Virus record (IMG/VR): IMGVR_UViG_3300046517_001147
Location: 1 to 64,000 of that record
Direction: 5' to 3' (one strand)
Origin: a virus
Length of the DNA: 64,000 bases
Shown: one piece after another, positions 2 through 55,848 of the stretch
How positions within the stretch are numbered: the stretch's first letter is position 1
Layout: each line of letters starts with the position of its first letter
Position numbers and translations under genes: made by a program
Notes under the pieces: generated by a model
The model's database searches: none
Told to the model about the DNA's origin: nothing
What the model saw: the letters and a program-made list of their open reading frames with translations, nothing else

Positions 2-3000
2 ACCTACGCGGAGCAGTTGACGATCGGCGCATCCGGAACCAGCGGAAGCCCTGTCACCATCACGGTAAATGGCGTCGGGACGGCCATTATAGACGGCGGC
101 AACGCTCGTACTGGATTTAGTTTCAACGGCCAATCCTTCGTAAACGTGGACGGTGTGACGGGCAACGCAGCGTTCGGCGGTTCTCAGACCTACGGAATCC
201 GTGTTATCAACATCGGCCTTCCAAACTACTGTGCCTACATAAACAACGGGGAGCAGCACGTAAAATTCCTTCACGTCGAGTGCTCCGGCAATGGGCAAAA
301 CACGGACAACGCGCATCTCAACGCTCCTCCAGTACCCGACGATAACCGTGGTGGAGTTTTCGGCGGCGGTGGCGCTCATTTCGTGGAGATTGCGTATGAC
401 TGGTTCCATACGCAGATGGCGCAATACAATCTTTCCACCTGCAGCATTTCAGGAACGACTTATACCTGCACGACGACGACGACGATCACAGACACCCATT
501 GGACTTCGCCTTCGGTGATTTTTGCCAGCATCGGTATTTACGGCAACACTGGAGTCAACGGTCACTGCGGCTTGATTAGCGCCAGTGGAACCACGTTTAC
601 CTGCGAAGGCGGCGGCTCCGGTACAGGTACGGGTGGCGTGGCGGTTATGGAATGGGCGGCCACGGCGGTCACTGGATTTTTCGCTACAGGAAGTACGAAT
701 TACAACGACAACACAACCCACGATAACTTTGCCTATGGCACGTTCAATGATGGCTTTCGCTCTAACGGAAATGGCCAGATTTATCACAACGAAGCACAAG
801 CCGGTATGGGCTCCGGCCATAGCGATGCGACCCTGGCTCAATCCGCTCTTTACGTAGAAATATCCAGCAATTATGTCCATGACTGGAACGACCAAAATTG
901 TTACCTGGACCAACTATCGGCAGCGTCCAGAGGGCACATTCGCATTTTCAACAATGTCTGGAACTCTCCTCACGGATTTGGCGGATGCAACGTAGACCCC
1001 GAAGGCGCTTCGGCCAACTGGGACGACATTGTGATGATTAACAACACGTCCTATTCGTCGAGAGATTATGTTGTTCGCTACGGCAACCAGGGCGGCACGG
1101 TAACCAACTTCGTATATATCAACAACATTTCCCGCGTCTCCGGTTCGGTTGGCGATCCGCCTTGGGCGGGTGGTGGCGGGATTGCTTTCGCTAGTTCCAC
1201 GGCCTACAACTACAACCTGTACTCCCCTACGCTTGGAGTGCAATTTCCAATCTTGGCAAATTTCAGCGGCGGGAATAAGACACTAGCGCAACTTCGGGCA
1301 CTCTCTCCACCCCGCGAACTGAATGGCAATACCTGCGACGTGACCTATGTTGGCGGAGCACTCCCGGCCGGCGCTCAACCTGCCTCTACCGACACTTGCT
1401 CTAAAAATGCCGGTCAGAATCTCACGGCTATCTATCCATTCGCCACTGTGGATTTTAATGGAGTCACCCGGCCTCCGACTGCTGCATGGGATTCAGGCGC
1501 AATGCAGGCTTCCGGCGGCGGTGGCGGAACGCCCGTTATCGGATTTTCTCCTAACCCGGCAGCTTTCGGAAACCAGATTCAGGGAACGACTAGCGCTCCT
1601 CTTACGATTACCGTTTCAAACAGCGGAACGGCCGCACAGGTTCTTTCTACGCCTTACTGGACAATCACCGGGACGAATGCCAGCAACTTTGCCAACGCGG
1701 GAACGGGAACCTGCGTCAACGGTGGGACTATCGCGATCAGCGGTTCTTGTACGGTGAACCTGACGTTCACTCCATCGGCTACCGGCGCGCGAACGGCTAC
1801 GTTCAACATTCAAGGCACGGTCAATGCTTCGGACAACCTAACGGGCACCGGCACCCTTCCGACTATCGGTCTTGCGCCAAGCCCTGCAGCTTTCGGCAAT
1901 CAGGTTGTCGGCACGCCAAGCTCGCCGTTGACGGTCACGGTTTCGAATACCGGCACGTCTACACAGACTTTAGCTAGTCCGTACTTCACGATTACCGGAA
2001 CAAATTCCGCGGACTTCTCAAATCTGGGAACTGGAACGTGCGTCAATGGCGGCTCTGTTCCGGCAAGCAGTTCTTGCACGATCAACCTGCGATTCACTCC
2101 AGCGGCGGCCGGAGCGCGCACAGCGACTCTAAATCTCCTAGGCACGGTCAATGCTTCTGACTCTCTGACCGGCACAGGCACGCAAGCGGCAATCAGCATC
2201 ACGCCAAGCCCCGGAGCCTTCGGAAACCAGAACGTCAACACAACCAGCGGACCACTGACGCTGACGGTTACCAATACCGGGACAGCCACGGAGACTCTAG
2301 CAACGCCTTACTTCACCCTGACCGGAACCAATTCGACCAACTTCGCCAATGCGGGTAGCGGGACGTGCGCCAACGGGGGAACGATCGCGGCTTCGGCTTC
2401 GTGTACGGTGAATTTGACGTTTACTCCGTCGGCGGCCGGTGCGCGCTCTGGAACCTTGAACATCCTGGGAACGGTGAATGGAACTGACGCACTGACCGGC
2501 ACAGGTGTTGCTCCCCTGGTCTCTTTAAGCCCGAATAGCATAGCCTTTGCGAACCAAACTACCAACACGTCCAGCGGAAACCAGGCCGTAACCCTAACCA
2601 ACACAGGGACGGCGACACTCAACATTTCCAGCATTACCTTGGTCGGAGCGAATGCCGCGGAGTTTTCTACCAATAGCAGCACATGCGGCGCGACTCTTAC
2701 CGCCGGCGCTTCCTGCTCCTTGAATGTGGTTTTTACGCCTACGACTGTGGGCAGCAAATCGGCCAATTTGACGTTCACTACTGACGCGGCAACAAGCCCG
2801 GATAGTGTGGCGCTCACTGGTACTGGAGTCGTTCCAGCGGTTCCAGTACTTAGTTTCTCTCCCAGTCCTGGCGCTTTTGGGAACCAACTGCAGAACACGA
2901 CCAGCGCGGGATTAACGATCACGGTCTCAAACATTGGGACTGGTCCCGAAGTTCTTTCAACTCCCTTCTTCACCATCACCGGAGCGAATGGCAGCGACTT

Positions 3001-5128
3001 CGCCAGGTCTGGAGGGACGTGCGTCAACGGCGGCGCGATTGTGGTTAGCGGCTCTTGTACGGTCATTTTGACTTTCACTCCGGCGGCGACGGGTAGCAGG
3101 ACCGGAACACTCAACATTTCAGGGACGGCTAACGGCTCAAACGTCCTGACCGGGACGGGGATTCAGCCGATTATCGGGTTGTCTCCTTCACCTGTAGCCT
3201 TTGGGAATCAACTGCAAGGCACCACAAGCGCTCCCTTGACCGTAACCGTGTCCAATAGCGGTACTGGGACTGAAACGCTGGCAACGCCCTTCTTTACGAT
3301 TACGGGAACCAACGCTTCAAACTTTGCGCGCAGCGGAGGAACCTGCGTCAATGCCGGCACCATCGCGCCAAGCGCTTCCTGCACCATCATCCTAACCTTT
3401 ACGCCTTCCGCTACAGGAGCCCGTAGCGCGACTTTAACGGTCCAGGGTACGGTAAACGCCACGGACTCCCTAACAGGCACCGGCACGCTCCCCGCTATTG
3501 CGCTGTCTCCTAGTCCTGTGGCCTTCAGTAATCAAAATCTGAACACTACCAGTTCACCGCTGACGGTGACCGTATCGAATACGGGTACAGCTTCCGAAGT
3601 CTTGGCCACTCCCTATTTCACGATCACCGGAACCAATTCCACAAACTTCGCGAATGCCGGGACAGGTTCATGCGCCAATGGCGGGACGGTTGCCGCAAGC
3701 GCGTCTTGCACAATCAATCTGACCTTTACCCCTTCGGCTACCGGGGCTCGTACTGGCGTCTTGAATGTTCTGGGCACCGTGAACGCCACGGCAAACATTA
3801 CCGGGACAGGGGTAGCCGCGGTCGTGTCGCTCAACCCGACTACGATCGCCTTTGGCAATCAGACGACTTCAACCTCTAGCGGGAACCATTTGGAGACTTT
3901 GACTAACACCGGCAACGGCACGCTAACCATTTCGAGTATCGCTCTGACCGGCGCGGATTCAGGACAATTCTCGACCAACGGAAGCACTTGCGGCGCGACA
4001 CTGGCGGCCGCTGCCTCTTGCTCGCTTAACGTGGTATTCAGCCCGACTACGATCGGAGCGAAAGCGGCAAGCCTGACATTCTCAACGAGCGCGGCCAGTA
4101 GTCCAGATAACGTAACTCTAAGCGGAACGGGTGTTTCCGCTGGCGTCCCTGTTCTAAGTTTTTCGCCTACTCCGGCTGACTTTGGGAGTCAAGCGGTAGC
4201 AACGACTGGTCCTCCGCTGACAATCACGGTAACCAACATCGGAACGGCTGCGGAAGTCTTGAGTACGCCTTACTTTACGATCGGTGGAGCGAACGGAACG
4301 AACTTCGCGAATACAGCGGGTGGAACTTGCGTCAACGGGGGCACCATCGCGGCCAACGGTGCTTCCTGCACGATTGTTCTGACGTTTACTCCGACCGCGC
4401 TCGGTACTAGATCGGGAAGTCTGACTATCGTCGGAACGGTAAATGGAACGAATCCTTTGACTGGGATTGGCACAGGCACAGGCACTCTTTCTCTCAATCC
4501 TACGAGCATCGCCTTTGGTAACCAGGACAGCGGAACGTCCAGCAATCCGCGCTCGGTCATCTTGACCAATACCGGAACCTTGACGCTGACAATTTCGAGC
4601 ATTGCCTTGACCGGAACGAACGCAAATCAGTTCTCGATCGATACCAATACCTGTGGCGCGACTTTGGCGGTTTCAGCTTCCTGCTCATGGAATGTGGTGT
4701 TCTCGCCTAACTTGGTGCAAAGCAATACGGCCAGCGTAACGATAACCAGCACCGCGACGAGCAGTCCAGACAATATCCCGCTGACTGGAACGGGCAGGAG
4801 TCCTACGCCTCCGTCTACTCCGGCGCCGGCTATTGTGATTGTGCGCGCCTTCCCGACCGGAAGCGTACTGGTGGCAGAGAATGTAGGAGTCACGCCAAAG
4901 AACTTTCAAGTGTCCTCAACTGGTTGCTCTCAGGATGGAGTCAATTTCCAGAATCCATGCCGGTTCGCGATTAGTTGCGGAAACTGCGGAAGACAAACCA
5001 CGGCCCGATTTAACGGAACGGCGGTAAGCCAGTCTTTTTCCAGGGGAACGGTTACAGTCAGTGTGCCGATCACTCTTTTCACCATGCCGGCACTGCCGAC
5101 TGAATATCAAATCTCGCTGCTGAATTGA
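2..5128 (+). CDS. Tail-spike-like protein: beta-helix followed by ten ASH-type repeats (5' truncated)
   Basis: The reading frame is open to the left edge, so the N terminus lies outside the window; the first possible internal start is a TTG at 17. From that start, residues 1-500 look like a right-handed parallel beta-helix, rich in Asn, Gly and Asp with many short beta-strand turns (INN, NNTSYSS, YINNIS). Residues about 505-1595 are ten tandem units of roughly 105-110 aa, each opening with a variant of LSPSPxAFGNQ and ending in LTGTG. This is the ASPM-SPD-2-Hydin / choice-of-anchor D type of Ig-like domain. The C-terminal 110 aa hold several Cys (CSQDG, CGNCG). A phage spike or depolymerase acting on the host surface is inferred from position at the end of the late strand. 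A cellular-type adhesin captured by the phage is the alternative. Confidence 0.85.
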   Translation, partial: TYAEQLTIGASGTSGSPVTITVNGVGTAIIDGGNARTGFSFNGQSFVNVDGVTGNAAFGGSQTYGIRVINIGLPNYCAYINNGEQHVKFLHVECSGNGQNTDNAHLNAPPVPDDNRGGVFGGGGAHFVEIAYDWFHTQMAQYNLSTCSISGTTYTCTTTTTITDTHWTSPSVIFASIGIYGNTGVNGHCGLISASGTTFTCEGGGSGTGTGGVAVMEWAATAVTGFFATGSTNYNDNTTHDNFAYGTFNDGFRSNGNGQIYHNEAQAGMGSGHSDATLAQSALYVEISSNYVHDWNDQNCYLDQLSAASRGHIRIFNNVWNSPHGFGGCNVDPEGASANWDDIVMINNTSYSSRDYVVRYGNQGGTVTNFVYINNISRVSGSVGDPPWAGGGGIAFASSTAYNYNLYSPTLGVQFPILANFSGGNKTLAQLRALSPPRELNGNTCDVTYVGGALPAGAQPASTDTCSKNAGQNLTAIYPFATVDFNGVTRPPTAAWDSGAMQASGGGGGTPVIGFSPNPAAFGNQIQGTTSAPLTITVSNSGTAAQVLSTPYWTITGTNASNFANAGTGTCVNGGTIAISGSCTVNLTFTPSATGARTATFNIQGTVNASDNLTGTGTLPTIGLAPSPAAFGNQVVGTPSSPLTVTVSNTGTSTQTLASPYFTITGTNSADFSNLGTGTCVNGGSVPASSSCTINLRFTPAAAGARTATLNLLGTVNASDSLTGTGTQAAISITPSPGAFGNQNVNTTSGPLTLTVTNTGTATETLATPYFTLTGTNSTNFANAGSGTCANGGTIAASASCTVNLTFTPSAAGARSGTLNILGTVNGTDALTGTGVAPLVSLSPNSIAFANQTTNTSSGNQAVTLTNTGTATLNISSITLVGANAAEFSTNSSTCGATLTAGASCSLNVVFTPTTVGSKSANLTFTTDAATSPDSVALTGTGVVPAVPVLSFSPSPGAFGNQLQNTTSAGLTITVSNIGTGPEVLSTPFFTITGANGSDFARSGGTCVNGGAIVVSGSCTVILTFTPAATGSRTGTLNISGTANGSNVLTGTGIQPIIGLSPSPVAFGNQLQGTTSAPLTVTVSNSGTGTETLATPFFTITGTNASNFARSGGTCVNAGTIAPSASCTIILTFTPSATGARSATLTVQGTVNATDSLTGTGTLPAIALSPSPVAFSNQNLNTTSSPLTVTVSNTGTASEVLATPYFTITGTNSTNFANAGTGSCANGGTVAASASCTINLTFTPSATGARTGVLNVLGTVNATANITGTGVAAVVSLNPTTIAFGNQTTSTSSGNHLETLTNTGNGTLTISSIALTGADSGQFSTNGSTCGATLAAAASCSLNVVFSPTTIGAKAASLTFSTSAASSPDNVTLSGTGVSAGVPVLSFSPTPADFGSQAVATTGPPLTITVTNIGTAAEVLSTPYFTIGGANGTNFANTAGGTCVNGGTIAANGASCTIVLTFTPTALGTRSGSLTIVGTVNGTNPLTGIGTGTGTLSLNPTSIAFGNQDSGTSSNPRSVILTNTGTLTLTISSIALTGTNANQFSIDTNTCGATLAVSASCSWNVVFSPNLVQSNTASVTITSTATSSPDNIPLTGTGRSPTPPSTPAPAIVIVRAFPTGSVLVAENVGVTPKNFQVSSTGCSQDGVNFQNPCRFAISCGNCGRQTTARFNGTAVSQSFSRGTVTVSVPITLFTMPALPTEYQISLLN

Positions 5129-5134
5129 GGATGA

Positions 5135-5503
5135 ATGGACGCCAACATTGTAATGACGCAAGTGACCATGAGTACTTTGTTTGCCGGTGCTCTAGCATTT
5201 GCAAAATCAAAAGCATGGGTTCCTTTCTTTAACAAACATTCAGCCACGATCAACCACGTATTTCTGGGAGTGACTTCTCTAGGCTCGGCTCTGGGTATTC
5301 ACGCGCTCTGGAATGGAACGGACCATTCTCTGCTCATTGTCGGATTGTCTCCGTTGACAATCGCGCACGGCATTTGGGAGTGGACAAAGCAGTGGTGTCT
5401 GCAATACTTGGTTCAACGCGGTGCGTTCGGTCCGGTTTCCATCCCTGGCGATGCTCCGGCCGTTCCTTCTACTCCGGTAAAGGCGGGAGAGACGAAGGAC
5501 TGA
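5135..5503 (+). CDS. Small multi-pass membrane protein, holin candidate
   Basis: 122 aa. The start at 5135 is preceded by GAGG at 5127-5130. Three hydrophobic stretches (about residues 8-22, 40-58 and 65-82) are followed by a polar Pro-rich tail (residues 98-122) ending GETKD. Size, several membrane segments and a charged cytoplasmic-type tail fit a phage holin, and the endolysin candidates lie close by but on the opposite strand. There is no recognisable family motif, so the lysis role is inferred. It is followed after 18 bases by another small gene. Confidence 0.6.
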   Translation: MDANIVMTQVTMSTLFAGALAFAKSKAWVPFFNKHSATINHVFLGVTSLGSALGIHALWNGTDHSLLIVGLSPLTIAHGIWEWTKQWCLQYLVQRGAFGPVSIPGDAPAVPSTPVKAGETKD

Positions 5504-5809: not shown

Positions 5810-6030
5810 GCGAATGGAAAGTTACGGTAGTCATTTTTGCTTTGGGCATCGTTTTCGCGGGAATCAGGACTTATTTCCAAGTACGACAACTGCGAATGGA
5901 CTTGAACGGACTGGGCGGTAAGGTTCGCCGGCAACACTCTCACCAACAGACGATTGCTTTGCTGCTAATCGCTATGACCGATGATCGAGCGGAGCGGGTA
6001 AGACTGGTCGGACTACTGAAAGAAGACTAG
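5806..6030 (+). CDS. Small single-pass membrane protein, possible lysis accessory
   Basis: 74 aa from a TTG start that overlaps the preceding stop. One N-terminal hydrophobic helix (about residues 5-21, VTVVIFALGIVFAGI) is followed by a basic, helical cytosolic or periplasmic part. N-in/C-out topology and small size would suit an i-spanin or an antiholin, but there is no sequence proof. The stop codon overlaps the stop of the convergent HNH gene by four bases (CTAG), so no terminator separates the two transcription directions here. Confidence 0.55.
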   Translation: MSEWKVTVVIFALGIVFAGIRTYFQVRQLRMDLNGLGGKVRRQHSHQQTIALLLIAMTDDRAERVRLVGLLKED

Positions 6031-6473
6031 AGCTTAGCGTACCGTTCTCTATGACGTTGGGCGTCACATGCCCTACATCGGCGTATCCAGTACGTTAGCC
6101 CGTTCCGTACTACGCTGTATCTATGCGTATTCTCTGCCGTGAACTGATGCCCTCTTTTACACTGCGTTTGAGCTCTCTTGCGAAGAATGTCTTTTCTGTG
6201 ACCTTTACTGATCGCGTCTCGGTTGTTGTCCAACGCAGTTCCAAGAAATAAATGATCGGGATTGAAACAGCGCTTGTCGTCACAGGTATGGCAGACGTAC
6301 CGCTTGTCCCGCAGTTGCATGCCAAGGAAAAGATGTGCCGATAGCCTGGAAACAGTAACGTGTGTCCCATTGAATTTTGTTCTTGGTCTGTGGGAACCTG
6401 GTCGCAACCAAATCCAACATCCGTATTCGGATAAGACGGCTCTTTTTTTAAGAGTTTCCTGCGTGTGGCTCAT
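6027..6473 (-). CDS. HNH endonuclease (homing-type)
   Basis: 148 aa. The central His-Cys box is clear: YVCHTCDDKRCFNPDHLFLGT spans residues 59-79, with C61, H62, C64, C69, N71 and H74 as zinc and catalytic residues. A second Cys cluster near residues 107-136 (CKRGH, CRAC) resembles the C-terminal zinc knuckle of phage HNH homing enzymes. The start overlaps the end of the SleB gene by 26 bases. Free-standing HNH genes of this kind are mobile and often sit beside essential phage genes; here it lies between the lysis genes and the end of the late strand. The biological target is unknown. Confidence 0.88.
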   Translation of the reverse strand: MSHTQETLKKRAVLSEYGCWIWLRPGSHRPRTKFNGTHVTVSRLSAHLFLGMQLRDKRYVCHTCDDKRCFNPDHLFLGTALDNNRDAISKGHRKDILRKRAQTQCKRGHQFTAENTHRYSVVRNGLTYWIRRCRACDAQRHRERYAKL

Positions 6474-6891
6474 ATCTGTAGAACCTCAGTCTACCTACGT
6501 TCAATGTGTTTTGAAAGTCGGTTTCCTTTCCCCAAGCCTTCGGAAAAGACATACTAGTATCATGATAAAAATTGGCGCCGTCGGTGTTGTCCGGCTCATC
6601 TCCTACCAAGACAGCCGAAGCCGCTGACAAACAATCTATCCAAGCGGGAGTTGCTTCATCTTCCGGCCACACTGCGGAGTTAGGATCGTTAGGATTAAAA
6701 GAAGAAAACTGAAATGGCTTGAGGACAACGCTCGCAACGTCATGGCCCCACCAACCACCTTGTGTTGCTCGGTTCTTGATGACATGACACACAGCGCGTT
6801 TGCCGTAGAGCGTTTCTCCGCGTGCTTCGCGATAACAGCACAAGGCCATTAGAGCAACATCGGAAAGCTCTCCGTAGGGTTGGGATTCCAT
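6448..6891 (-). CDS. Cell-wall hydrolase, SleB family (endolysin candidate)
   Basis: 147 aa from the ATG at 6889-6891. I prefer this start to an upstream TTG because it has an excellent Shine-Dalgarno (GGAAGGAGGG, rev-comp of 6895-6904). The sequence CYREARGETLYGKRAVCHVIKNR at residues 19-41 is the hallmark of the SleB/CwlJ lytic transglycosylase fold, with Glu22 of the EARGE motif the likely catalytic acid. Trp- and Phe-rich middle and C-terminal segments complete the domain. There is no signal peptide, so export would need a holin. Its neighbours are the HNH gene and a papain-like peptidase. Confidence 0.85.
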   Translation of the reverse strand: MESQPYGELSDVALMALCCYREARGETLYGKRAVCHVIKNRATQGGWWGHDVASVVLKPFQFSSFNPNDPNSAVWPEDEATPAWIDCLSAASAVLVGDEPDNTDGANFYHDTSMSFPKAWGKETDFQNTLNVGRLRFYRYEPHAGNS

Positions 6892-6907: not shown

Positions 6908-6947
6908 TAAAAAGGCAAGCGCCGGGGTTGGGTAAGCGCTTGCCTTT
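6908..6947 (-). terminator. Rho-independent terminator after the papain-like gene
   Basis: Perfect 12-bp stem (arms 6911-6922 and 6936-6947) with a 13-nt loop. Read on the minus strand it is followed by a short T run (CCTTTTTAATT). It sits 26 bases after the stop of the papain-like gene and overlaps the region just upstream of the SleB Shine-Dalgarno, so read-through or a separate promoter is needed for SleB expression. Confidence 0.75.
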
Positions 6948-6972: not shown

Positions 6973-7773
6973 CTATTTCCAGAAACCTAAATGCTGGATC
7001 CAAGAATCCTGCACAATATCGGCGTTGGCTGCGTCGGAGTAGCGAAGCCAGAAATTTCCATAGTTTGCCCACTTGGAGCCCCACGAATTGCGGACCAGGA
7101 AACTACCTCCGTTTATGTTGTCGTCGTATCCGATTCCCAATACTTCGTGTCCACCCAAAACTTTCTCGCGGGTGTCGGGACTCCACACACCGTTTGCTGC
7201 AATGGCTTCGAAGGACTGATAGACAAGAAAGCCTATGCGGAAGTTGTAGCCGGATGCGATACACGACTTCATATCGTCAACGGTGGTTAGCCGGTGATAC
7301 TGGCCGGTCACATACTTCTTGGCGGAGTCTAATTGCTCTTGGGTCGGCGCCGTCGTGAAGTCTCCTGAAACGTAAGGCATCTCGGAGCGCAGCGCACAAC
7401 CGAATTTGTTGAGTGCCATGCAGGAAGTACGCCCGTAACTGCCGGCATCTCCTTCTGCAAGTGAGCCGTCAAGCAATCTCTCCACATAATAGATGAATGA
7501 CGGTGAATACATTCCTTCCGTGCCTGGGGATACGACTTGGCCGCGACGATCTATTTCCTTCCAATGCAAATACTCGCGGTCTGCGGCTGCAGCGTGCGCG
7601 GTGCAAGAGCCTTCGTTTCCCTGGTCCAGTACCGGCCCCATTAGGTCCAGGTTATCGGTGGCGGTAGCGGTAGCGGTCAAGAGCGGCGCGCGGCCTACGC
7701 CAAAGTCGCGGAAGTCTGGCAGATCACGGTGATACCCGTATCTACGTCCTGCCGGTGATAGTTCAAGTGGCAT
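6973..7773 (-). CDS. Papain-like (C1A) cysteine peptidase
   Basis: 266 aa with all papain landmarks in order: oxyanion Gln51 and nucleophile Cys57 in DQGNEGSCTAHA, catalytic His209 in GGHEVLGIGYDD, and Asn229 in VRNSWG. The spacing and the GWSPDTREKV-like loop fit C1A peptidases. No signal peptide and no long inhibitory propeptide are visible (about 45 residues precede the core), so it is likely made active in the cytosol or released at lysis. It lies between the SleB hydrolase and a lipoprotein, which suggests a role in lysis or in cutting cell-envelope or defence proteins. The start has GGGGATAACCG upstream. Confidence 0.9.
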   Translation of the reverse strand: MPLELSPAGRRYGYHRDLPDFRDFGVGRAPLLTATATATDNLDLMGPVLDQGNEGSCTAHAAAADREYLHWKEIDRRGQVVSPGTEGMYSPSFIYYVERLLDGSLAEGDAGSYGRTSCMALNKFGCALRSEMPYVSGDFTTAPTQEQLDSAKKYVTGQYHRLTTVDDMKSCIASGYNFRIGFLVYQSFEAIAANGVWSPDTREKVLGGHEVLGIGYDDNINGGSFLVRNSWGSKWANYGNFWLRYSDAANADIVQDSWIQHLGFWK

Positions 7774-7783
7774 CGGTTATCCC

Positions 7784-8398
7784 CTAGAGAATCGCCTTGG
7801 TTGGAACTTTCACATCTGCCGGTGCGGACTTGAGTACCGCGTCGAAGTCTTTCTTGAACGCTGCCGCATTGCGTTCTTTGGCGATGATCGTAACCGTAGT
7901 GCTGGAGACTTTTACCGGACCTGCGAGTTTATCCCGCGTAACTTTCATGGTCATGGACGGCGGCAAGCGATTCATAAAAGCCGCGATTGTTGACAGAACG
8001 ACTTGAGCAAGGCCGGTGATGATTGAGAGTAGGCCGCCGGAAACATTCAGCGCTTCTAGGAACGTGGTGAAGTTGTCCACGATAGCCTTGAACGCTTCTT
8101 CGACTTTGGCTAGAGCTCCGGCCGGCGGTGGCGTAGCAGACTGGTATTCCTTCACGGCCGCGGTGAGCGCAGCAAAGCCAGCTTCAATGAGAGAGATGAT
8201 CGCCTGGACTGCCGGCGAGATAACGACGCCATTGCCGGTAAGCACGGTCAGAATGGAATTGAGCGCCGCTTCACCTACGGGAACCCAAGAGAGAATATCG
8301 GAGAACACATTGCAACCGGAGATGAGCAACGAACTACCGCCAGCGGCAAGAAACAAAACAAGTGAGGATATACGTGCGGTGAAAGTGCGTCGATTCAT
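7784..8398 (-). CDS. Predicted lipoprotein of unknown function
   Basis: 204 aa. The N terminus is a lipoprotein signal: basic MNRR, a hydrophobic stretch, and a lipobox LISGC with Cys29 as the lipid-modified residue. The rest is Ala/Val/Leu-rich with several amphipathic helices (residues 60-75 and 120-145) and a basic C terminus. A strong Shine-Dalgarno (AAAAGGAGAATCA) precedes the start. Phage lipoproteins include outer-membrane spanins and superinfection-exclusion proteins; its place next to two wall or protein hydrolases fits either. No family motif is recognised. Confidence 0.7.
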   Translation of the reverse strand: MNRRTFTARISSLVLFLAAGGSSLLISGCNVFSDILSWVPVGEAALNSILTVLTGNGVVISPAVQAIISLIEAGFAALTAAVKEYQSATPPPAGALAKVEEAFKAIVDNFTTFLEALNVSGGLLSIITGLAQVVLSTIAAFMNRLPPSMTMKVTRDKLAGPVKVSSTTVTIIAKERNAAAFKKDFDAVLKSAPADVKVPTKAIL

Positions 8399-9053: not shown

Positions 9054-9277
9054 TTTTTGTTGCTGCGAAACTCGTTGGCCTTCGGACAAACACTCCAATG
9101 CGCTTCTAGCTTCTGCGATTCGTCGTCTTCGGTTCCTGGGATAGCGGACATTGGCAGCTTCTTCCCGCGTGGTGTGGTGAACCATTGCATTTCGGCGCCG
9201 CATCCGCGACAAGCAGAGGAGCCAGTGTACTTGTAGCCTAGGCTCTCCAGGCCGTCGCGAGTGTCTGGAAAAGGCAT
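9050..9277 (-). CDS. Small zinc-finger-like protein
   Basis: 75 aa. A Cys pair, CRGC (residues 22-25), followed by a WFTTPRGKKLPM segment and a later HWSVCP, gives a C-x2-C / H-x3-C pattern that probably binds one zinc ion. Such mini zinc ribbons are frequent in phage early regions and may contact DNA or host polymerase; nothing more specific can be said. Start and stop overlap the neighbouring genes by 1-4 bases. Confidence 0.6.
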   Translation of the reverse strand: MPFPDTRDGLESLGYKYTGSSACRGCGAEMQWFTTPRGKKLPMSAIPGTEDDESQKLEAHWSVCPKANEFRSNKK

Positions 9278-9648
9278 TATTCTTTTTCTTTCTTGATGCG
9301 GACCTTCACAGTTTCTTTTTCGTGGACCATTTTTACTTCCACGCCATCGTGATTGTAGGATTCTTTTTTGTGTTTCTTCATTAGGGAGAGAAGTACATCT
9401 TTGGTTTCAACTTCTGAACTGGTCAGCTTCATCCGATCATCGCGGATGTTGGCATACTCTCTAGCCGCGTCCTCTAGCTCCTCGATCTCCGGGTCTTCCA
9501 TGCCGGGAAGTCTGCTGGTCTTGCCGCGCTTCTTGTTTGCTTCGGAGAGCAGTTCCGGCTTGTGATCGTCCTCTTTCGGTCCGATTCCTTTGCGTCCGGT
9601 TTGCTTTGGCTTGTGCTTCGGGAGATAGTCCTCTACTTTTTTTGCCAA
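9277..9648 (-). CDS. Charged coiled-coil-like hypothetical protein
   Basis: 123 aa from a TTG start, chosen because GGAGG lies 7 bases upstream while the longer upstream frame has no such site. Lys/Glu-rich throughout. Residues about 50-95 (DPEIEELEDAAREYANIRDD and following) form a heptad-like helix, and the end is a strand-rich, basic segment (VKMVHEKETVKVRIKKEKE). It resembles small conserved proteins found beside phage replication and recombination genes, but I cannot assign a reaction. Confidence 0.55.
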   Translation of the reverse strand: MAKKVEDYLPKHKPKQTGRKGIGPKEDDHKPELLSEANKKRGKTSRLPGMEDPEIEELEDAAREYANIRDDRMKLTSSEVETKDVLLSLMKKHKKESYNHDGVEVKMVHEKETVKVRIKKEKE

Positions 9649-9712
9649 TGAGATTCCTCCTAGGTGGAACGGGAGACCGCAAGTTAGCGTACTGAAGTGT
9701 CGGAGGTCAAGG

Positions 9713-9952
9713 CTATTCTGCCAATGCTCCTGCCCACGGTTCATCTTCCCATCTACGTTGTGCAAGAAAAGTGCTCGCGTACGGGATATATATACCACCG
9801 CTTATTTGCCACTGCAGAGTTTGTTTCCAAAGCCCTAAGCCATGAACGGCCGATATTTTTTCACTTGTGCTCATTTTGCGCCAAAGTTTCTCGGCCTTCA
9901 TTCTTCCGACCTTTCTGGGGTAAATTTTCCAGAAACTCTCAAAGTCACTCAT
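9713..9952 (-). CDS. Stand-alone DnaT/replisome-organizer C-terminal-type protein
   Basis: 79 aa with GAGAGGG upstream of the ATG. FWKIYPRKVGRMKAEKLW (residues 7-24) and QISGGIYIPYASTFLAQRRWEDEP (residues 49-72) match the C-terminal module of phage replisome organizers and DnaT-like primosomal proteins. In known phages this module usually follows a DNA-binding domain in one longer protein; here only the module is present. It may help load the host helicase. No helicase or polymerase gene is seen in this window. Confidence 0.7.
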   Translation of the reverse strand: MSDFESFWKIYPRKVGRMKAEKLWRKMSTSEKISAVHGLGLWKQTLQWQISGGIYIPYASTFLAQRRWEDEPWAGALAE

Positions 9953-22450: not shown

Positions 22451-23056
22451 ATGAAAGGTAGAAAGCAAACTAGATTCGATACTTCCAAGCGTCTTGAATC
22501 CTTTGCACGTCAATACGTTATCCTGGGTTTCAACGGTGAACGGGCTGCAATCGCTGCGGGTTATGCCAGAAAGAACGCAAAGGTAACTGCTTCTAGGCTG
22601 CTAACCAAAGCCAACGTAAAGGCTCTTGTCCAGCGGTTCGCGGCGCCGATTGAAAAAAAACTAGACTTTTCCGTGCATAGAACGTTGGAACAAATTGCGC
22701 GGCATGCGTTTGTAGACCCGCGCAGATTATTCAATGCAGACAATTCAATCAAGAGAATTGCGGACCTGGACGAAGATACGGCCGCTTGTGTGCATGCGAT
22801 TGAACACACTGGCAAGCGTACTGATAAGGTCCGGCTCACTAATCAACTGCATGCGCTTGAATTGTTGGCGAGGTATCACAAACTATTCGCTGATGACGTG
22901 GTCCAGCAAGATACCGGCATCCGCGTGATTGTTGTGGATGCTCCCAGGCCGCCACGTCTAGTGGGCTCCGGTCCTGCTACAACGTCGAACGGTAACGGAC
23001 ATAATGGGAATGGGAACGGCCATTCTAACGGCCATAAACCCGACCTGGACGATTAA
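22451..23056 (+). CDS. terS: Terminase small subunit
   Basis: 201 aa. Residues 15-55 (LESFARQYVILGFNGERAAIAAGYARKNAKVTASRLL) form the N-terminal HTH-like part of the Terminase_2 small-subunit family, and KALVQRFAAPIEKKLDFSVHRTLEQIARHAFVDPRRLF is the typical central helix pair. The C terminus is an Asn/Gly/His-rich tail (residues 178-196) that may be flexible or metal-binding. It recognises the packaging site for the large subunit encoded at 25201. First gene of the late rightward strand. Confidence 0.85.
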   Translation: MKGRKQTRFDTSKRLESFARQYVILGFNGERAAIAAGYARKNAKVTASRLLTKANVKALVQRFAAPIEKKLDFSVHRTLEQIARHAFVDPRRLFNADNSIKRIADLDEDTAACVHAIEHTGKRTDKVRLTNQLHALELLARYHKLFADDVVQQDTGIRVIVVDAPRPPRLVGSGPATTSNGNGHNGNGNGHSNGHKPDLDD

Positions 23057-23059
23057 AGC

Positions 23060-23143
23060 TGTACCCACAACTAGACGTTAGTACCCACAAATGTACCCAC
23101 GATTAGCTTGACCGATGTACCCACAATCCCGTATTGTACCCAC
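23060..23143 (+). repeat. Five direct repeats of GTACCCAC
   Basis: Copies start at 23061, 23081, 23093, 23117 and 23136, all preceded by T or A and most followed by AA. Spacings are 20, 12, 24 and 19 bp. The last copy ends directly at the ATG at 23144. The array covers the promoter of the ribbon-helix-helix gene, so it is a likely operator array for that protein. Confidence 0.75.
23108..23137 (+). promoter_or_regulatory. Promoter of the ribbon-helix-helix gene
   Basis: -35 TTGACC (23108-23113), 18-bp spacer, -10 TATTGT (23132-23137), six bases before the ATG. Two of the five GTACCCAC repeats fall in the spacer and over the -10. Confidence 0.5.
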
Positions 23144-23629
23144 ATGCCTAAGACCGAGACAATCAAGATACGGCTAAGCGATCGGGAGTTAAGCACCTGG
23201 ATACTGGCGGCTGAAAAAGAACGGGTGAGTTTATCGGAGTGGATAAGGTCGTGCTGCTCCAGGCCGGAAGGGAACGACAATGGAAACGAGACTAGTCAAA
23301 ACGTGTCACGGGCTCCGCGAGATTCGTCTACTAGACGGCGCGGTACTTCCGCCGGACGTGAGTCCAAGCGAACCGATCGAACATTCCGTGCGCCTCAAAA
23401 AAATAGTGAGTCTTGGGGAATTGATTCCAGTCCGGCGTCGAATGGGGATAGCGGAGCAGTTGAGACAACTAGTGCGGTCGGCATTCCTGAATCCGTTCCA
23501 GTCCAAAGAGTAATCCACACGGCCACATCTAACCGGCTAACCTGCCTCTGCAATACCTGTACGCTCTACCGCAAGAATAATTCCCTGCCTATCGGCGGGT
23601 TGCCTAAGAAAGAAAAGGTACAACGGTGA
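23144..23629 (+). CDS. Ribbon-helix-helix (CopG/MobC-like) DNA-binding protein
   Basis: 161 aa from the ATG at 23144. A TTG start 36 bases upstream is possible but would translate through the operator repeats. Residues 4-40 (TETIKIRLSDRELSTWILAAEKERVSLSEWIRSC) match the ribbon-helix-helix fold: a basic strand, then two helices. A long Ser/Arg/Asn-rich linker follows, then a C-terminal LTCLCNTCTLYRKN that may bind zinc. Autoregulation through the repeat array is inferred. The linker and Cys tail are unusual for simple CopG repressors. Confidence 0.7.
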   Translation: MPKTETIKIRLSDRELSTWILAAEKERVSLSEWIRSCCSRPEGNDNGNETSQNVSRAPRDSSTRRRGTSAGRESKRTDRTFRAPQKNSESWGIDSSPASNGDSGAVETTSAVGIPESVPVQRVIHTATSNRLTCLCNTCTLYRKNNSLPIGGLPKKEKVQR

Positions 23630-23865
23630 GCGACCTGGACCTGGATCAGCTTGTCCATACTCCCGAAGGCCGGTTAATGCTGGAAGTCTTGCAAGGTCGT
23701 CGGCTGCCGCTGATGGTGTGCATACAGGACAAGGGCGAAGTCGTGTTCTGGTATCCTCCGAAAATCCTCAATAACCTAATGACCGATGGCGAGCGTTTGA
23801 TTGAGTGGACTAGGTTGCTTGAGGAGCATGCGGCGCGGATGCTGGATCAGGTTCCCAAACAATGA
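23626..23865 (+). CDS. Small hypothetical protein
   Basis: 79 aa from a GTG start overlapping the previous stop. Acidic N terminus and a beta-hairpin (LPLMVCIQDKGEVVFWYPP), then two helices (LNNLMTDGERLIEWTRLLEEHAARML). No family recognised. Part of a coupled run of four small genes ahead of the large terminase gene. Confidence 0.55.
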   Translation: MSDLDLDQLVHTPEGRLMLEVLQGRRLPLMVCIQDKGEVVFWYPPKILNNLMTDGERLIEWTRLLEEHAARMLDQVPKQ

Positions 23866-24017
23866 AGTGGAAGCATTGTTCTCGCTGTGACGCGGTGCGC
23901 GGTCCGTGTAATCCTGTTAAAACTGGGTGGCGTCGTGGTCCTATTGGCGGGAAAGTGTATACGTTATGTCCTGAGTGCACGGCGGCGCTGCTCAAGCTGT
24001 TTAGGCTCCAGCGATGA
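23862..24017 (+). CDS. 51-aa four-Cys zinc-ribbon protein
   Basis: Read directly: ATG 23862-23864, stop TGA 24015-24017. MKWKHCSRCD, then VRGPC, then YTLCPECTAALLKLF: C6, C9, C16, C36 and C39 give a CxxC...CxxC zinc ribbon. Overlaps both neighbours by four bases. It may act with the adjacent regulator; function unknown. Confidence 0.65.
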   Translation: MKWKHCSRCDAVRGPCNPVKTGWRRGPIGGKVYTLCPECTAALLKLFRLQR

Positions 24018-24112
24018 AACGTGTGGCGGTATGGCTTGCCTACTCTTTAGGCGTGGTAACTGGTTTCGGTGCTGGCGTATGCTTCGCGTCTTGGATGCTG
24101 AATCAATGGTGA
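24014..24112 (+). CDS. 32-aa membrane peptide
   Basis: Read directly: ATG 24014-24016 overlapping the previous stop, TGA at 24110-24112. MKRVAVWLAYSLGVVTGFGAG and CFASWMLNQW: one hydrophobic helix with GxxxG-type packing (GVVTGFGAG). Basic start, so the N terminus is probably cytosolic. Confidence 0.5.
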   Translation: MKRVAVWLAYSLGVVTGFGAGVCFASWMLNQW

Positions 24113-24116
24113 GAGT

Positions 24117-24479
24117 ATGAGAAACGAAGATTTGATACGGGCCATAGCGCACGATAGGGAAGGGCGAGTATTCACCGACGAAGTGTTGGCGCCATTCCTA
24201 GAATTGGCAGCGCGGTCTATTCCCTATATAGCGGCCGGGCTTGCGGCGGAGTCTCGCGGGTTGAGTGAGCACGCAAGGTTCTGGTTGTCTTGCGTTCCGC
24301 ATGCTGTAGCGAATAGCGAGCCGGATGAGCAGGACGAAAGTGCGGAGCGCGCGCGGCGGGTGGTTCAAGCTGCTATCCGTTTGGCGAAGGCGGGAACATC
24401 GTGCGGTGCGGGAGAACTGCCTTACGAATCTCTGCATGCTCTGTATGATGCGGTACGGGAGTATGAGCGTGAGGGTTAA
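24117..24479 (+). CDS. Hypothetical early/late-boundary protein
   Basis: 120 aa. Helical, acidic; residues 20-50 (DEVLAPFLELAARSIPYIAAGLAAES) and 80-100 (ARRVVQAAIRLAKAG) are amphipathic helices. GGTGAGAGT precedes the ATG. No family recognised. The 3' end overlaps the start of the next gene by 17 bases. Confidence 0.5.
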   Translation: MRNEDLIRAIAHDREGRVFTDEVLAPFLELAARSIPYIAAGLAAESRGLSEHARFWLSCVPHAVANSEPDEQDESAERARRVVQAAIRLAKAGTSCGAGELPYESLHALYDAVREYEREG

Positions 24480-25032
24480 GCGGAGCGCAACTGGCGAGCG
24501 GTTATGGCGTGAGTTTCGGGTGCGGGTAGTTATCCCTGGAACGAAGGATATAGTCTGGCGGTCACATCCGCCGGCGAAGCGGGGATACTCTGCGGCCGAT
24601 CTCGATAAGATGCTCGACCAGGTTGCGGAGCATTTAGAGAAGCGGTTTCCGTCGATAGAGTTTCGTATGGTGGAACTAGGTCCAAACGTTTTTAACTTCA
24701 TCTATGAGGGGAGAAAAGAATTGTCAGAACCAGTCAAGAATCCTTGTCCGAGTAATGCGGTGGCTTCGGAGATTGCGCGGGGAGTGTGTGCAGTGTCCGG
24801 CCATTCGATAGCGTCACTTTCGAACGGTCATCAAGTCGGGCCGCAAGGCATAGTTCCGATGGCCATAACCGTCTGCACCAAGTGCGGTATTGGGTTGAAT
24901 GAGATACGCGAGGGAACTGATCGGGCGTTTAATATGGCGGTCGCTGAGGGCGTCAAGCAAGCGGTGGCTGCGTTGCATCCTCCGCCGATGCCGGTGCCCG
25001 ATGCTAAAGTACCAGTTACGGAACCGGCTTAA
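24463..25032 (+). CDS. Hypothetical protein with C-terminal Cys motif
   Basis: 189 aa starting MSVRVKRSATGERLW at 24463, with CGGGAG before it; a longer frame inside the previous gene was rejected. N-terminal half beta-rich (EFRVRVVIPGTKDIVW) plus a helix (SAADLDKMLDQVAEHLEKRF). The second half has CAVSGH and ITVCTKCGIGLNEI, a possible zinc site, and a Pro/Ala tail. Possibly two domains. Function unknown. Confidence 0.5.
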   Translation: MSVRVKRSATGERLWREFRVRVVIPGTKDIVWRSHPPAKRGYSAADLDKMLDQVAEHLEKRFPSIEFRMVELGPNVFNFIYEGRKELSEPVKNPCPSNAVASEIARGVCAVSGHSIASLSNGHQVGPQGIVPMAITVCTKCGIGLNEIREGTDRAFNMAVAEGVKQAVAALHPPPMPVPDAKVPVTEPA

Positions 25033-25185
25033 TCTGATATTCTCCCGTTGTTTGCTGAAGTTCAACGGGGATAGACAATCGTTCGGGGGGTTAGTTTGGG
25101 ACGTTGCAGACTGCATGCCCTAGGTGGTTTGACCATCGCGTGCTTTCCATGTTCCTCTGAGGGCTAATCTCCTGAACGGTTTTTC

Positions 25186-25194
25186 TGGTAGTAT
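25186..25194 (+). promoter_or_regulatory. Extended -10 promoter before the large-terminase gene
   Basis: TGgTAGTAT ends six bases before the GTG at 25201, with no Shine-Dalgarno between. The 168-bp gap upstream also holds a CCCGTTG/CAACGGG hairpin (25044-25050/25063-25069). A leaderless or very short leader is implied. Confidence 0.45.
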
Positions 25195-25200
25195 CCTGCC

Positions 25201-26892
25201 GTGAGTCCTGCCGCAATCTCTGAACCTGTAGACGACGGTCAACGTAGTACTTCTTCGTTCTATCAGCCATGGCCACATCAAATTGCTTTTCACTGTTCTC
25301 CTGCGAAGTATCGTTTACAGGTCGGCGGGTTTGGTTCTGGCAAGTCGCGGCCGCTGCTGATGGAAGCAATCTTTCACTGCTTAGAGTATCCGGGCTCGAA
25401 TAGCATCATCCTGCGTAAGACAATTCCTGATCTAAAACGGACGGTGATCGACAAGTTTCTGGCGGATGTGCCGCGCTGGATGTACCAGTTCTACCACCAA
25501 GGCGACCACATTGTTTATTTCCATCCGCAACCCGAAGTGGACGCGAAAGGTAAGCCAACGGGTAAGATGCTGCAAAGCAAGTTGTTCTTTGGAGCGTGCG
25601 AACGCGAAGCGGATGTAGGCAAGTATCTTTCTACGGAGTACGTCTTTATCGGGTTTGAGGAGTTGGGAGAGTTTTCGTTTGCCATTTGGGATGCGCTGGC
25701 TGGCCGCAATCGCTGCCCGATCCCTGGAACACGTCCAACGATGGGTGGCGCCACTAACCCGATGGGTGTCGGCTGGTCATGGATTAAGAAGCTGTGGAAG
25801 GATAAAAAACCGTTTCAAGGAATGGATGCGGAGAAATACGACGCTGCCGATTATGAGTACTTCCATTCGACGGTGGACAATAACCCGCTGTACGCGAACA
25901 ACAAAGAATATATAGCGCAACTGGAACGGTCACCACTGCGAGATAAAATCCGGTGGGGCAAAATGGATTCGGTTTCCGGTCAGTTCTTCGAGAACTGGGA
26001 GCCGGTCAGACATTGTAGAGCAGCGAGCGATTTCACTTTTGAGGACTGGCAACCAGTATGGGTGGGATGGGACTACGGTTTTGGTCACTATGCCGGTATT
26101 GTTTTTTTCACTAAAGCGATTCTAAAACCTAATCTCAAGTTTGGATGGGACAAGCCGCGGCGGGTCAATGTGGCCATTAAAGAGTTGGTTATGTCCGGTG
26201 CTGCCGATGGCCAATCGCAAGGCGCTACTCCGGAGGAGCAAGCTAAAGCGCTGATTGCGTGCATCCCGCGAGTACAGATGCGGTCGCATAAAACCGGAGA
26301 AGATTTTGAGATGGAAGATACCTTCTCGTATGAGGAGCAAGAACGGGACAACGAGTACGGGTATAAGTGGAATGTGGACTCGATCCACTTTTCCTGGGAG
26401 CGGTTTAACCGCACGGTGAGTAATCGCACGGTAGCCGATGAAGTGGGAGAATTGTTGCAGCGTGCGGGTTTGCCTTTGCCTACACGGTCAAACACGGATC
26501 GGGTGGCCGGATGGCAAAAGATTTATGATTTGCTGGACACCGATGAGTTCTTTGTATTACAAAACGAGTGCCCGACATTGGCCGAAGCGATACCGTTGCT
26601 GGTAAGAGGCGATGGGATAACCTGTTCGGCTGAGGATGTGGTCAAGCCAAAAGGACTAAGTTTGAATGACGATATTGCCGAAGCATGCCGGTACGGGATT
26701 GCGGGAACGTTGTTAGATGCTTCCGATGTTCCGGAGTCGGTCAAGTTGCGCGAAAGATTACAGGCAATTAAAGACCCCATGGCCAGAGCAGCAGCAGCGT
26801 ATAGGGATTACAACTTGAAACAAGCAGCGCTGAAAAGACCGCCAAAGCCTATATCGGTTCCAAGCTGGTACAACAAATTGAGGCCGCAATGA
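25201..26892 (+). CDS. terL: Terminase large subunit
   Basis: 563 aa. The N-terminal ATPase has Walker A GGFGSGKS (residues 42-49), an LRKTIPDLKRTV adenine-side segment and a probable Walker B at YVFIGFEE (residues 147-154). The C-terminal nuclease half begins near VWVGWDYGFGHYAGIVFF (about residue 280; the Asp fits the first metal ligand of an RNase-H-type nuclease). It packages DNA with the small subunit and the portal. GTG start; no Shine-Dalgarno. The length is normal for the family. Confidence 0.93.
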   Translation: MSPAAISEPVDDGQRSTSSFYQPWPHQIAFHCSPAKYRLQVGGFGSGKSRPLLMEAIFHCLEYPGSNSIILRKTIPDLKRTVIDKFLADVPRWMYQFYHQGDHIVYFHPQPEVDAKGKPTGKMLQSKLFFGACEREADVGKYLSTEYVFIGFEELGEFSFAIWDALAGRNRCPIPGTRPTMGGATNPMGVGWSWIKKLWKDKKPFQGMDAEKYDAADYEYFHSTVDNNPLYANNKEYIAQLERSPLRDKIRWGKMDSVSGQFFENWEPVRHCRAASDFTFEDWQPVWVGWDYGFGHYAGIVFFTKAILKPNLKFGWDKPRRVNVAIKELVMSGAADGQSQGATPEEQAKALIACIPRVQMRSHKTGEDFEMEDTFSYEEQERDNEYGYKWNVDSIHFSWERFNRTVSNRTVADEVGELLQRAGLPLPTRSNTDRVAGWQKIYDLLDTDEFFVLQNECPTLAEAIPLLVRGDGITCSAEDVVKPKGLSLNDDIAEACRYGIAGTLLDASDVPESVKLRERLQAIKDPMARAAAAYRDYNLKQAALKRPPKPISVPSWYNKLRPQ

Positions 26893-51492: not shown

Positions 51493-53337
51493 ATGCGAAT
51501 CGGGTTAGTTACCAACTTCAAAGGGCGAGGACTGGAATGCGATGCTCGCCTAATCACTCCGCTGATTGAATCTGCAGGGCATACCGTTGAACGGCTGCAG
51601 TACGACGAAAAGCACCACGGCAATTTTGACCTGCTCATATTCCTAGAAGTGGTTCCGCGGCATCTGGTACGTCTTTCCGACACTCCACCGTGGGTTATCG
51701 TCAATCCTGAATTTCTGGTTCCGGAATACATTTCCACCATTCGCCGGTCATTTGGACGGGTGTTCTCTAAAACTCACGAAGCGCAACGCATCTCGAAAGG
51801 ACTGTTTGGAGATAAGGCGGAATATATCGGATTCCTCTCCGAAGACCGCTTCGATGAATCGATTGAAAGGCAAATGACGTTCCTGCACGTCGCGGGACAT
51901 AGCAAAGCCAAAGGAACGGACGCGATTATTGATGCTTGGCGCTGGACGCGGAACGGTGAACGGCTAAAAGCCAAGTTGACGGTGATAACCGATTTCCCGC
52001 CAGAGGATGTTCCCGAAGGCGTCACGATCTTGGAGAATGTGACCGATGCGGAACTGAAACGGCTGCAGAACGAGTGTCAGTTCCATTTGCAGCCTTCGCA
52101 GACCGAAGGATGGTCGCACGTCATTCACGAAGCAATGTCGGTGAACGCGACGATCTTGACCGTGGACGCTCCGCCGATGAATGAGATTAAATCGGCTTAC
52201 CGGATTCCTTCCTGTGGTTCAACGCTATTCAATCTGGTGCGGATGTACGAAGTTTCGGCGCTGGATATATACACCGCGGTATCGACTATGGCGAAATTTA
52301 AGCGCCAAGGATATTCGCAAGCCGGGGCTCCGCGCAGTGAATTTCTGGATGCCGTGAACGCATTCAAGGAAGCATTCACAGCGCAGTTGGCGACAGCCGG
52401 CCAAAGCGCGGCGGTTAGGAACGAGAAAGCAAGCCGGACGATCGCCTTTATTGGCAACTTCGAAGCGGAACACTCGACAGAAAATCAAATCCTGTGGGCT
52501 TTGGAGCAAAGGCTAGGCTATGAAGTCGATAAGCTGCAGGAAAACCGTATCAGCGCAGAGGACATAGAGGATGCTGCTTTAGGAGCGCGCGCACTTCTTT
52601 GGGTTCGCACTCCCGGCTGGCTGCAGATAACCAACGAACGAATGTTCGAAGTTCTGGAATACCTGAAACGGCGCAAGGTGGTGACCGCTTCGATTCACCT
52701 GGACAAGTTCTGGGACATACCGGAGCGGGAAGCGCTGATCGGTAAAATTCCCTTCTGGAAGACAGATTACGTATTCACGGCGGATGGATCGCGGCAAGAC
52801 GATTTCAAAGCGCGGGGAGTGAACCACATCTGGATGCGGCCAGCGGTTTCCGAAGTCTATTGCCATCCTGGGACGCCAAGAGAGGAGTACCGCTGCGATG
52901 TTGGATTTGTCGGAGCCAAAGGCGGCTATCACTCTGAATATCCTTTCCGGCAAAAGATGGTTGAGTTCCTAGAAGAGACTTATGGAAGCAGGTTCAAGCA
53001 TATTCAAGGCGTTCGCGGCCACTTACTCAACGACGTTTACGCTTCGATGAAAGTGGTGGTCGGAGATTGCTTCGGCGCGGGGATTCCGTACTACTGGAGC
53101 GATCGGTTGCCGGAAACTTGCGGTCGTCATGGTTTCCTGTTGCATCCAGAGGTCGAGGGGCTGGATATTCCTACAGCAGAGTATAGGTCTCAAGATATTT
53201 CACATTTGCAAATCATGGTTGATTACTGGCTGCGCGAAGATTCTGGTCGCTTGGATGTTCTGGTTGATTGCGCTGAACGGGTGAAGCTATCGCATACCTG
53301 GACAATCCGCATGGCAGAGATTATGGAGCAACTGTGA
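51493..53337 (+). CDS. Two-domain glycosyltransferase
   Basis: 614 aa. Residues 1-290 are a GT-B/GT4-type domain: MRIGLVTNFKGRG at the N terminus and ECQFHLQPSQTEGWSHVIHEAMSVNATILTVDAPPMNE with the E-x7-E-like donor site. Residues 315-614 are a second GT-B-type domain (AFIGNFEAEH, then DVGFVGAKGGYHSEYPFRQKMVEFL and GIPYYWSDRLPETCGRHGFLLHPEVEG, resembling CgeB/Glyco_trans_1_2 proteins). Two transferases fused in one chain suggest sequential sugar additions. It opens the glycan cluster behind its own promoter. Confidence 0.8.
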   Translation: MRIGLVTNFKGRGLECDARLITPLIESAGHTVERLQYDEKHHGNFDLLIFLEVVPRHLVRLSDTPPWVIVNPEFLVPEYISTIRRSFGRVFSKTHEAQRISKGLFGDKAEYIGFLSEDRFDESIERQMTFLHVAGHSKAKGTDAIIDAWRWTRNGERLKAKLTVITDFPPEDVPEGVTILENVTDAELKRLQNECQFHLQPSQTEGWSHVIHEAMSVNATILTVDAPPMNEIKSAYRIPSCGSTLFNLVRMYEVSALDIYTAVSTMAKFKRQGYSQAGAPRSEFLDAVNAFKEAFTAQLATAGQSAAVRNEKASRTIAFIGNFEAEHSTENQILWALEQRLGYEVDKLQENRISAEDIEDAALGARALLWVRTPGWLQITNERMFEVLEYLKRRKVVTASIHLDKFWDIPEREALIGKIPFWKTDYVFTADGSRQDDFKARGVNHIWMRPAVSEVYCHPGTPREEYRCDVGFVGAKGGYHSEYPFRQKMVEFLEETYGSRFKHIQGVRGHLLNDVYASMKVVVGDCFGAGIPYYWSDRLPETCGRHGFLLHPEVEGLDIPTAEYRSQDISHLQIMVDYWLREDSGRLDVLVDCAERVKLSHTWTIRMAEIMEQL

Positions 53338-55093: not shown

Positions 55094-55848
55094 TTACCAG
55101 CACTTCGCCGCTTGCTTCACACCCTTCATCGGAGATATTCGACAAGGTTTATGAAAGCACGCAATTCCATCTGCCGGGAGTCATCACGCATTTGTGTTGC
55201 GACGGCGTTCGCGAACCGGAGCACGAAAATAGACGCGCCGGGTACGAAGGCTACAAAGAAAAACTCCGCAACCGTCCATTCATTCAAATGCGGGAATGGC
55301 CTAAATCGGTCCAGCAAGGGTTCATGGTGCGCTCGGCATTGCGGCACGTCACGACTCCTTTGGTGCTCTGGCAGGAGCATGACTACGCTCTTACTCTTGA
55401 CCCGATCGACTGGGAAGGGATTATCAATGCCATTCAACAGGACCGGGCTCGCGTCGTTCGTTTCCATAACACTCCGGAGATTCACCCGCTTCACCAACAC
55501 TTAATGCTTGATTGCTACGAAGGCGCCGACGGCGAGCATGGCGGAGTAAAAGTGTCCGACCCGCCACTGGTTTGTGGCGTGCCGATGATTCGCACCATAC
55601 AGTTCTGGTGCTGCCCGTTCCTGACTACGACTGAATGGCTTTCTGGGATGATGGAAGACCCGACCCTGTTTACTCCAAACACTTATTGCGAGATTGAGCC
55701 GGTGATTTACGGACCAATTTCCTATAGACCCTGGCAAGACTACAAGGTGATGGTCTACGCGCCGTCTGAACCTTCCATTCAGCGCAGTCAACATCTTGGC
55801 GGTCGCGGACACGACAATGCCGATCCAAAGAGGCCAATGACATGGTGA
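55069..55848 (+). CDS. GT-A-fold transferase-like protein
   Basis: 259 aa from a GTG start overlapping the previous gene by 25 bases. MYQNLITVITSTSPLASHPS at the start, then VRSALRHVTTPLVLWQEHDYAL (residues 85-106), where EHD takes the place of the DxD metal site of GT-A enzymes. Aromatic, beta-rich C terminus with CEIEPVIYGPISYRPW. Probably a family-2-like glycosyltransferase; divergent. Confidence 0.6.
   Translation: MYQNLITVITSTSPLASHPSSEIFDKVYESTQFHLPGVITHLCCDGVREPEHENRRAGYEGYKEKLRNRPFIQMREWPKSVQQGFMVRSALRHVTTPLVLWQEHDYALTLDPIDWEGIINAIQQDRARVVRFHNTPEIHPLHQHLMLDCYEGADGEHGGVKVSDPPLVCGVPMIRTIQFWCCPFLTTTEWLSGMMEDPTLFTPNTYCEIEPVIYGPISYRPWQDYKVMVYAPSEPSIQRSQHLGGRGHDNADPKRPMTW

Follow-up and report, generated by a model that had tools for sequence, protein, structure and literature searches.

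The lysis modules known from phages employ holins, peptidoglycan hydrolases and membrane-fusing spanins or, in mycobacteriophages, lipases. Here we describe a papain-type peptidase gene, and the lipoprotein gene that accompanies it, in a stretch of 64,000 nucleotides of DNA from a soil-type phage (positions 1 to 64,000 of the IMG/VR record IMGVR_UViG_3300046517_001147, which has 68,462 bases), referred to as the window. The closest described enzyme is xylellain of Xylella fastidiosa (3OIS), a short bacterial C1A peptidase that shares with the phage product both the catalytic residues and an N-terminal segment of the form YGY..D..D.RD. Unlike xylellain, the enzyme of the window is phage-encoded, lies in a lysis module, has a lipoprotein partner and belongs to an all-viral clade marked by the motif GRRYG.

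Xylellain-type C1A genes have been described in Myoviridae and Siphoviridae and ascribed to horizontal transfer from bacteria (PMC10380794); the peptidase of these tailed phages is of the same kind, and neither a lysis context nor a lipoprotein pair appears to be mentioned there. Two cultured phages of Gram-positive hosts likewise have a C1A peptidase beside or fused to a cell-wall hydrolase: in THSA-485A it directly follows a GH25 lysozyme, and in the Alicyclobacillus phage MMB025 a single fusion protein combines it with a glycoside-hydrolase-like domain and a peptidoglycan-binding one. They differ from the window in their hosts and in sequence (24-32% identity), and no lipoprotein of the window's family was found in them.

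The locus also recalls the spanins (Rz/Rz1), in that the gene of a small lipoprotein occupies the corresponding genomic slot, next to endolysin genes. Unlike in spanins, the partner is a soluble peptidase and not an inner-membrane coiled coil, and the lipoprotein is a predicted helical bundle of about 175 residues. A spanin inner-membrane partner was not found, the adjacent genes encoding the soluble peptidase and a soluble-looking protein of 137 aa, and no spanin family match was obtained in the window with Pfam or PHROG. The recurring lysis-module context of the peptidase appears to be new. To our knowledge, and within the literature searched, the pairing of such a peptidase with a lipoprotein in lysis modules is undescribed; in open-access papers nothing specific was found on phage C1A peptidases in lysis.

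The Peptidase, Its Family and Its Predicted Fold

Judged by its residues and family matches, the product of the peptidase gene is a member of the papain family C1A, of xylellain type. It matches Pfam Peptidase_C1 (PF00112) at 3e-11, with 44.2 bits against a curated cut-off of 20.7, as well as PHROG 16701 "peptidase" (9.8e-14), and its top solved-structure match by sequence is xylellain 3OIS (1.3e-28); with these matches, the assignment is not a matter of chance. A previous reading of the window, made from the sequence only, had proposed a complete C1A peptidase with Gln51, Cys57, His209 and Asn229 in normal order, and indeed the family and structure matches bear this out, the catalytic set (Q51, C57, H209, N229) being found in papain order at exactly those positions. 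The catalytic H and N are retained in 122 of 123 viral copies; these two residues are the ones counted, the conservation of Q and C among viral relatives being partly selected by the search pattern. No signal peptide was recognised in the peptidase. Likewise, no peptidoglycan-hydrolase or wall-binding domain was found in it: Peptidase_C1 is the sole match above cut-off, the PHROG label is "peptidase" and not a lysis one, CHAP, NlpC/P60 and amidase families gave no match at the thresholds used (Pfam, PHROG), and NCBIfam holds no matching model.

An AlphaFold model, built with 46 relatives as input (mean pLDDT 91.5), is matched by papain, cathepsins and xylellain, which points to a papain fold. 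The best match by fold is again 3OIS (Z 32.1, rmsd 2.2, 245 residues aligned at 32% identity, covering model residues 1-264), with a TM of 0.80 for the full-length predicted structure, and xylellain is the closest among solved structures over the full length of the peptidase, N-terminal segment included.

This segment deserves attention. In the structural alignments, the mature chains of papain, ficin and cathepsins mostly start at model residue 32-36, whereas zymogens (procathepsins B, K and H, pro-papain and pro-Der p 1), together with xylellain, align from residue 1-13 on, the propeptide residues of the zymogens underlying the first part of the model. According to the model, then, residues 1 to about 33, with the motif YGY..D..D.RD, are a short propeptide-like N-terminal segment, so that the earlier statement that the enzyme has no propeptide is doubtful. 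Of the 65 bacterial relatives, nearly all retain the motif positions that were checked, as do about three quarters of the 123 viral ones. Leite et al., in 2013, are said to have found that the N-terminal segment of xylellain blocks the active site, and a ribonucleotide was reportedly bound as a regulator. Given the propeptide-like segment and the reported block in xylellain, it is a reasonable inference that the segment may inhibit the phage peptidase itself.

Organization of the Locus

Table 1. Features around the peptidase gene in the window
Feature	Position	Strand	Evidence or remark
Large fibre/adhesin-like protein, about ten choice-of-anchor D (ASH/Ig-like) domains	17..5128	+	NF012200 7.8e-169
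Small hydrophobic protein, candidate holin	5135..5503	+	Sequence only
HNH endonuclease, likely intruder at module end	6027..6473	-	Family matches
Endolysin, Hydrolase_2 (SleB-like cell-wall hydrolase) type	6448..6891	-	PHROG 938 endolysin 2.3e-16, Pfam
Terminator-like hairpin, 13 pairs, then U run	6911..6947	-	Between peptidase and endolysin
C1A xylellain-type cysteine peptidase, 266 aa (ORF)	6973..7773	-	Family, PHROG, structure matches
Lipoprotein, 204 aa, conserved peptidase partner	7784..8398	-	Signal, lipobox, profile searches, model

The proposal that the peptidase stands beside the endolysin, in a lysis region, holds: the gap between its gene and the Hydrolase_2/SleB-type endolysin ORF, which extends to 6906 and has its likely start at the ATG at 6891, after a GGAGG motif, is 67 bp. 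It had also been proposed that a terminator follows the peptidase gene, and this is plausible in view of the hairpin (Table 1), which a simple terminator scan left unlisted because its loop is longer than the scan allows. In the related locus L003, an HNH-like ORF sits between peptidase and endolysin instead of at the module end. No family match was found for the candidate holin. The fibre/adhesin-like gene is convergent with the lysis module; its choice-of-anchor D repeats are commoner in bacterial surface proteins.

The module lies at the 3' end of a run of minus-strand genes, the few recognised ones of which have an early appearance (anti-restriction-like), and the structural genes, with the terminase at 22451-26892, lie on the opposite, plus strand; late timing therefore cannot be assumed. 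A sigma-70 promoter scan returned nothing useful. Elsewhere, a cluster at 51493-59878, within the structural region, looks by eye as if it encoded glycosyltransferases, FkbM-type methyltransferases and an NAD-dependent epimerase, and may serve virion glycosylation.

The Lipoprotein Partner

The gene directly upstream of the peptidase encodes a lipoprotein with a twin-arginine-like signal (MNRRTF) and the lipobox ISG-C at Cys29, whose cysteine is invariant in 8 aligned relatives. By profile search, homologues were recovered in 25 viral loci. In all 22 loci holding both genes, duplicates removed, the lipoprotein is encoded within five genes of the peptidase and on the same strand, a count conditional on the presence of the peptidase, through which the loci were fetched; the same-strand share among neighbours at comparable distance is 70%. 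Mostly it is the next gene upstream, at times overlapping the peptidase gene. The paired loci lie within and around the window's all-viral peptidase clade, and the lipoprotein was found in none of 80 bacterial peptidase loci. In the clade members L014, L017 and L036, no lipoprotein was recognised.

Some variants were also observed. A 55-kb contig carries a twin-arginine-type member of the family (L171:1684-2337) and no detected C1A peptidase. On another contig, an ORF next to the peptidase (L027:10861-11394) resembles the lipoprotein family in its core, under the profile threshold, and has no evident signal or lipobox. The RRxF twin-arginine-like motif occurs in about half of the family, the others looking Sec-type; on this ground, the idea that the pair is always exported by the twin-arginine route was rejected.

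The lipoprotein model (pLDDT 86, 8 sequences) predicts that the helical bundle is followed by a short C-terminal beta hairpin, and neither a solved structure nor a viral model matched it with E <0.4. Neither a tblastn search of 50,697 phage records with the lipoprotein nor a blastn search with the 3.3-kb module returned a match, so that, among cultured phages, none is known here to have a related pair. A reciprocal scan, with the lipoprotein as query, arrived at five contigs only, being limited by the poor conservation of the family.

Distribution, Clade and Selection

Profile-based scans found relatives of the peptidase encoded on at least 448 IMG/VR contig stretches and, in bacteria and archaea, at 429 genomic places. 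Papain-type peptidases had been presumed rare in phage lysis regions; with these contigs and the tailed-phage cases already published (PMC10380794), the C1A enzyme as such is no rarity. A tree was built from 138 peptidases, and in it the window's copy falls in the supported all-viral group (19 rows, 96%) that the GRRYG motif marks, a group with weak inner nodes and with some long branches that come together. Viral and bacterial peptidases are strongly separated, with 8 label changes (bacterial group) against about 46 when labels are shuffled.

Two near relatives of the peptidase, at 98% and 85% identity, are encoded on 68-kb contigs. When the window is compared with L003, the peptidase has a dN/dS of 0.084 and the lipoprotein one of 0.11, which indicates that both are maintained by selection. 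The possibility that the gene was a chance acquisition, absent from close relatives, is thus rejected by its conservation in them.

Nearness to Cell-Wall Hydrolases

Fifty viral records with the peptidase, many of them fragments and with locus genes called by a simple longest-ORF script, were searched for five hydrolase families (M15, GH24, Amidase_2, Hydrolase_2 and SLT). At least one hydrolase was detected in 25 records, the window's own included, and in 13 of these its distance from the peptidase is at most 2 kb, where a null of random placement, not of other cargo genes, predicts 1.7; none of 20,000 random trials was as high. Without the window and its 98% relative, the count is 11 of 23. 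Among records below 90 kb, a hydrolase is found within 2 kb in 12 of 15, whereas in genomes above 90 kb the peptidase is mostly away from detected hydrolases and its location varies.

The hydrolases, Amidase_2 ones among them, belong to unrelated families; the neighbours are Hydrolase_2 in the window, L002, L003, L027, L040, L177 and L212 (below cut-off in L189), M15 in L013, L014, L015 and L030, SLT in L011 and L186, GH24 in L017 and, in neighbour scans, PG_binding_3/GH108-like products below curated cut-offs in L075 and L209. This suggests that the peptidase remains with the lysis module while the type of endolysin is swapped. Several modules also encode small hydrophobic proteins, possible holins.

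Two modules contain further enzymes. In L016, the lipoprotein and C1A peptidase genes are preceded, at a distance of a few genes, by one for a trypsin-like serine peptidase with a hydrophobic N-terminus (777-1562; Trypsin_2, 2e-15), so that this module holds a second protease. In L040, a DNA/RNA non-specific endonuclease of secreted or lipoprotein type (9169-9942; Endonuclease_NS, 1.4e-35) lies between lipoprotein and peptidase, with the Hydrolase_2 endolysin upstream of this stretch.

Possible Functions

The absence of a recognised signal peptide, the candidate holins and the envelope-directed enzymes of sister modules (the nuclease of L040 and the protease of L016) lead us to favour, tentatively but as a serious possibility, an active xylellain-type C1A endopeptidase that would serve as a holin-released lysis protease, cutting envelope proteins, with the lipoprotein either aiding it or holding it back. 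Within the lysis module, its action would come at the end of infection. Having no export signal, it would remain in the cytoplasm, as a classical endolysin does, possibly kept in check by the N-terminal segment, and would be let out once the holin has opened the inner membrane. Its targets in the periplasm would be proteins on which the cohesion of the envelope depends, such as outer-membrane anchors and proteins of the periplasm or the surface layer; peptidoglycan would be cut by the endolysin, and the lipoprotein, on a membrane facing the periplasm, would position, assist or restrain the peptidase. Timing, release, substrate and the role of the lipoprotein are what we infer in this scheme. 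The Gram-positive cases argue against a role at the outer membrane only, and protein surface layers could be a common type of target.

Phage cargo genes often adjoin lysis genes, and proximity is therefore no proof of a lysis function. Also against a role in lysis stand the early-looking minus-strand block, the hairpin that separates peptidase from endolysin, the distance from detected hydrolases in most large genomes, the contig on which the lipoprotein but no peptidase was detected and the clade members in which no lipoprotein was recognised. A more far-reaching proposal, rather unlikely in our judgement, is that a dedicated lipoprotein and the signal-less peptidase would form a proteolytic envelope-disruption unit with which certain uncultivated phages lyse cells, in addition to spanins or in their place, and that a twin-arginine lipoprotein might take the peptidase, already folded, through the inner membrane.

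It is improbable that the peptidase belongs to the virion, either maturing a tail fibre or structural protein or riding in the particle and digesting surface proteins at entry. Large fibre/adhesin-like genes do adjoin the module in the window, L013, L014, L186, L209 and L225, and the fused peptidase of MMB025 lies in a tail-gene region; nevertheless, lysis cassettes commonly follow fibre genes, which makes this context unspecific, and a virion role leaves unexplained the association with unrelated hydrolase families and with the lipoprotein. Just as improbable is an early exclusion or counter-defence unit, in which the lipoprotein would block superinfection or the peptidase destroy host defence or receptor proteins. 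Among the exclusion factors of phages, small lipoproteins are a classic type, and the pair of the window ends a minus-strand block with an anti-restriction-like gene, but the repeated closeness to endolysins across genomes of differing gene order speaks against this idea, and no recurring defence-related neighbours were seen in the loci.

Less probable again is a passenger, i.e., a mobile bacterial protease with a general role in scavenging or turnover, placed near lysis genes as a usual site of cargo insertion. The widespread bacterial relatives, the published transfers to phages (PMC10380794) and the variable location in large genomes agree with it, whereas the all-viral clade, strong purifying selection and conserved lipoprotein partner point to a fixed phage function. 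We give the lowest probability to a second endolysin, cutting stem peptides or protein-peptidoglycan links. The enzyme is fused or adjacent to cell-wall hydrolases in phages of Gram-positive hosts, and other papain-fold families, namely NlpC/P60, CHAP and the phage enzymes PeiW/PeiP, cleave wall peptides (PMC10318531). However, it is a C1A member with a protease-type active site and, as said, has no match to wall-peptide-cutting families at the thresholds used; among the named C1A structures matched, none is a peptidoglycan hydrolase.

Concluding Remarks

Judging from the genomic context, a protease may be a further means by which some phages break the outer layers of their hosts. If a protease were a standard part of lysis, a further enzymatic step would be added, which could explain how lysis is completed in hosts with protein-rich envelopes. 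The conserved lipoprotein-peptidase pair offers a defined unit for expression and testing and, if active, papain-type phage proteases could also serve as tools.
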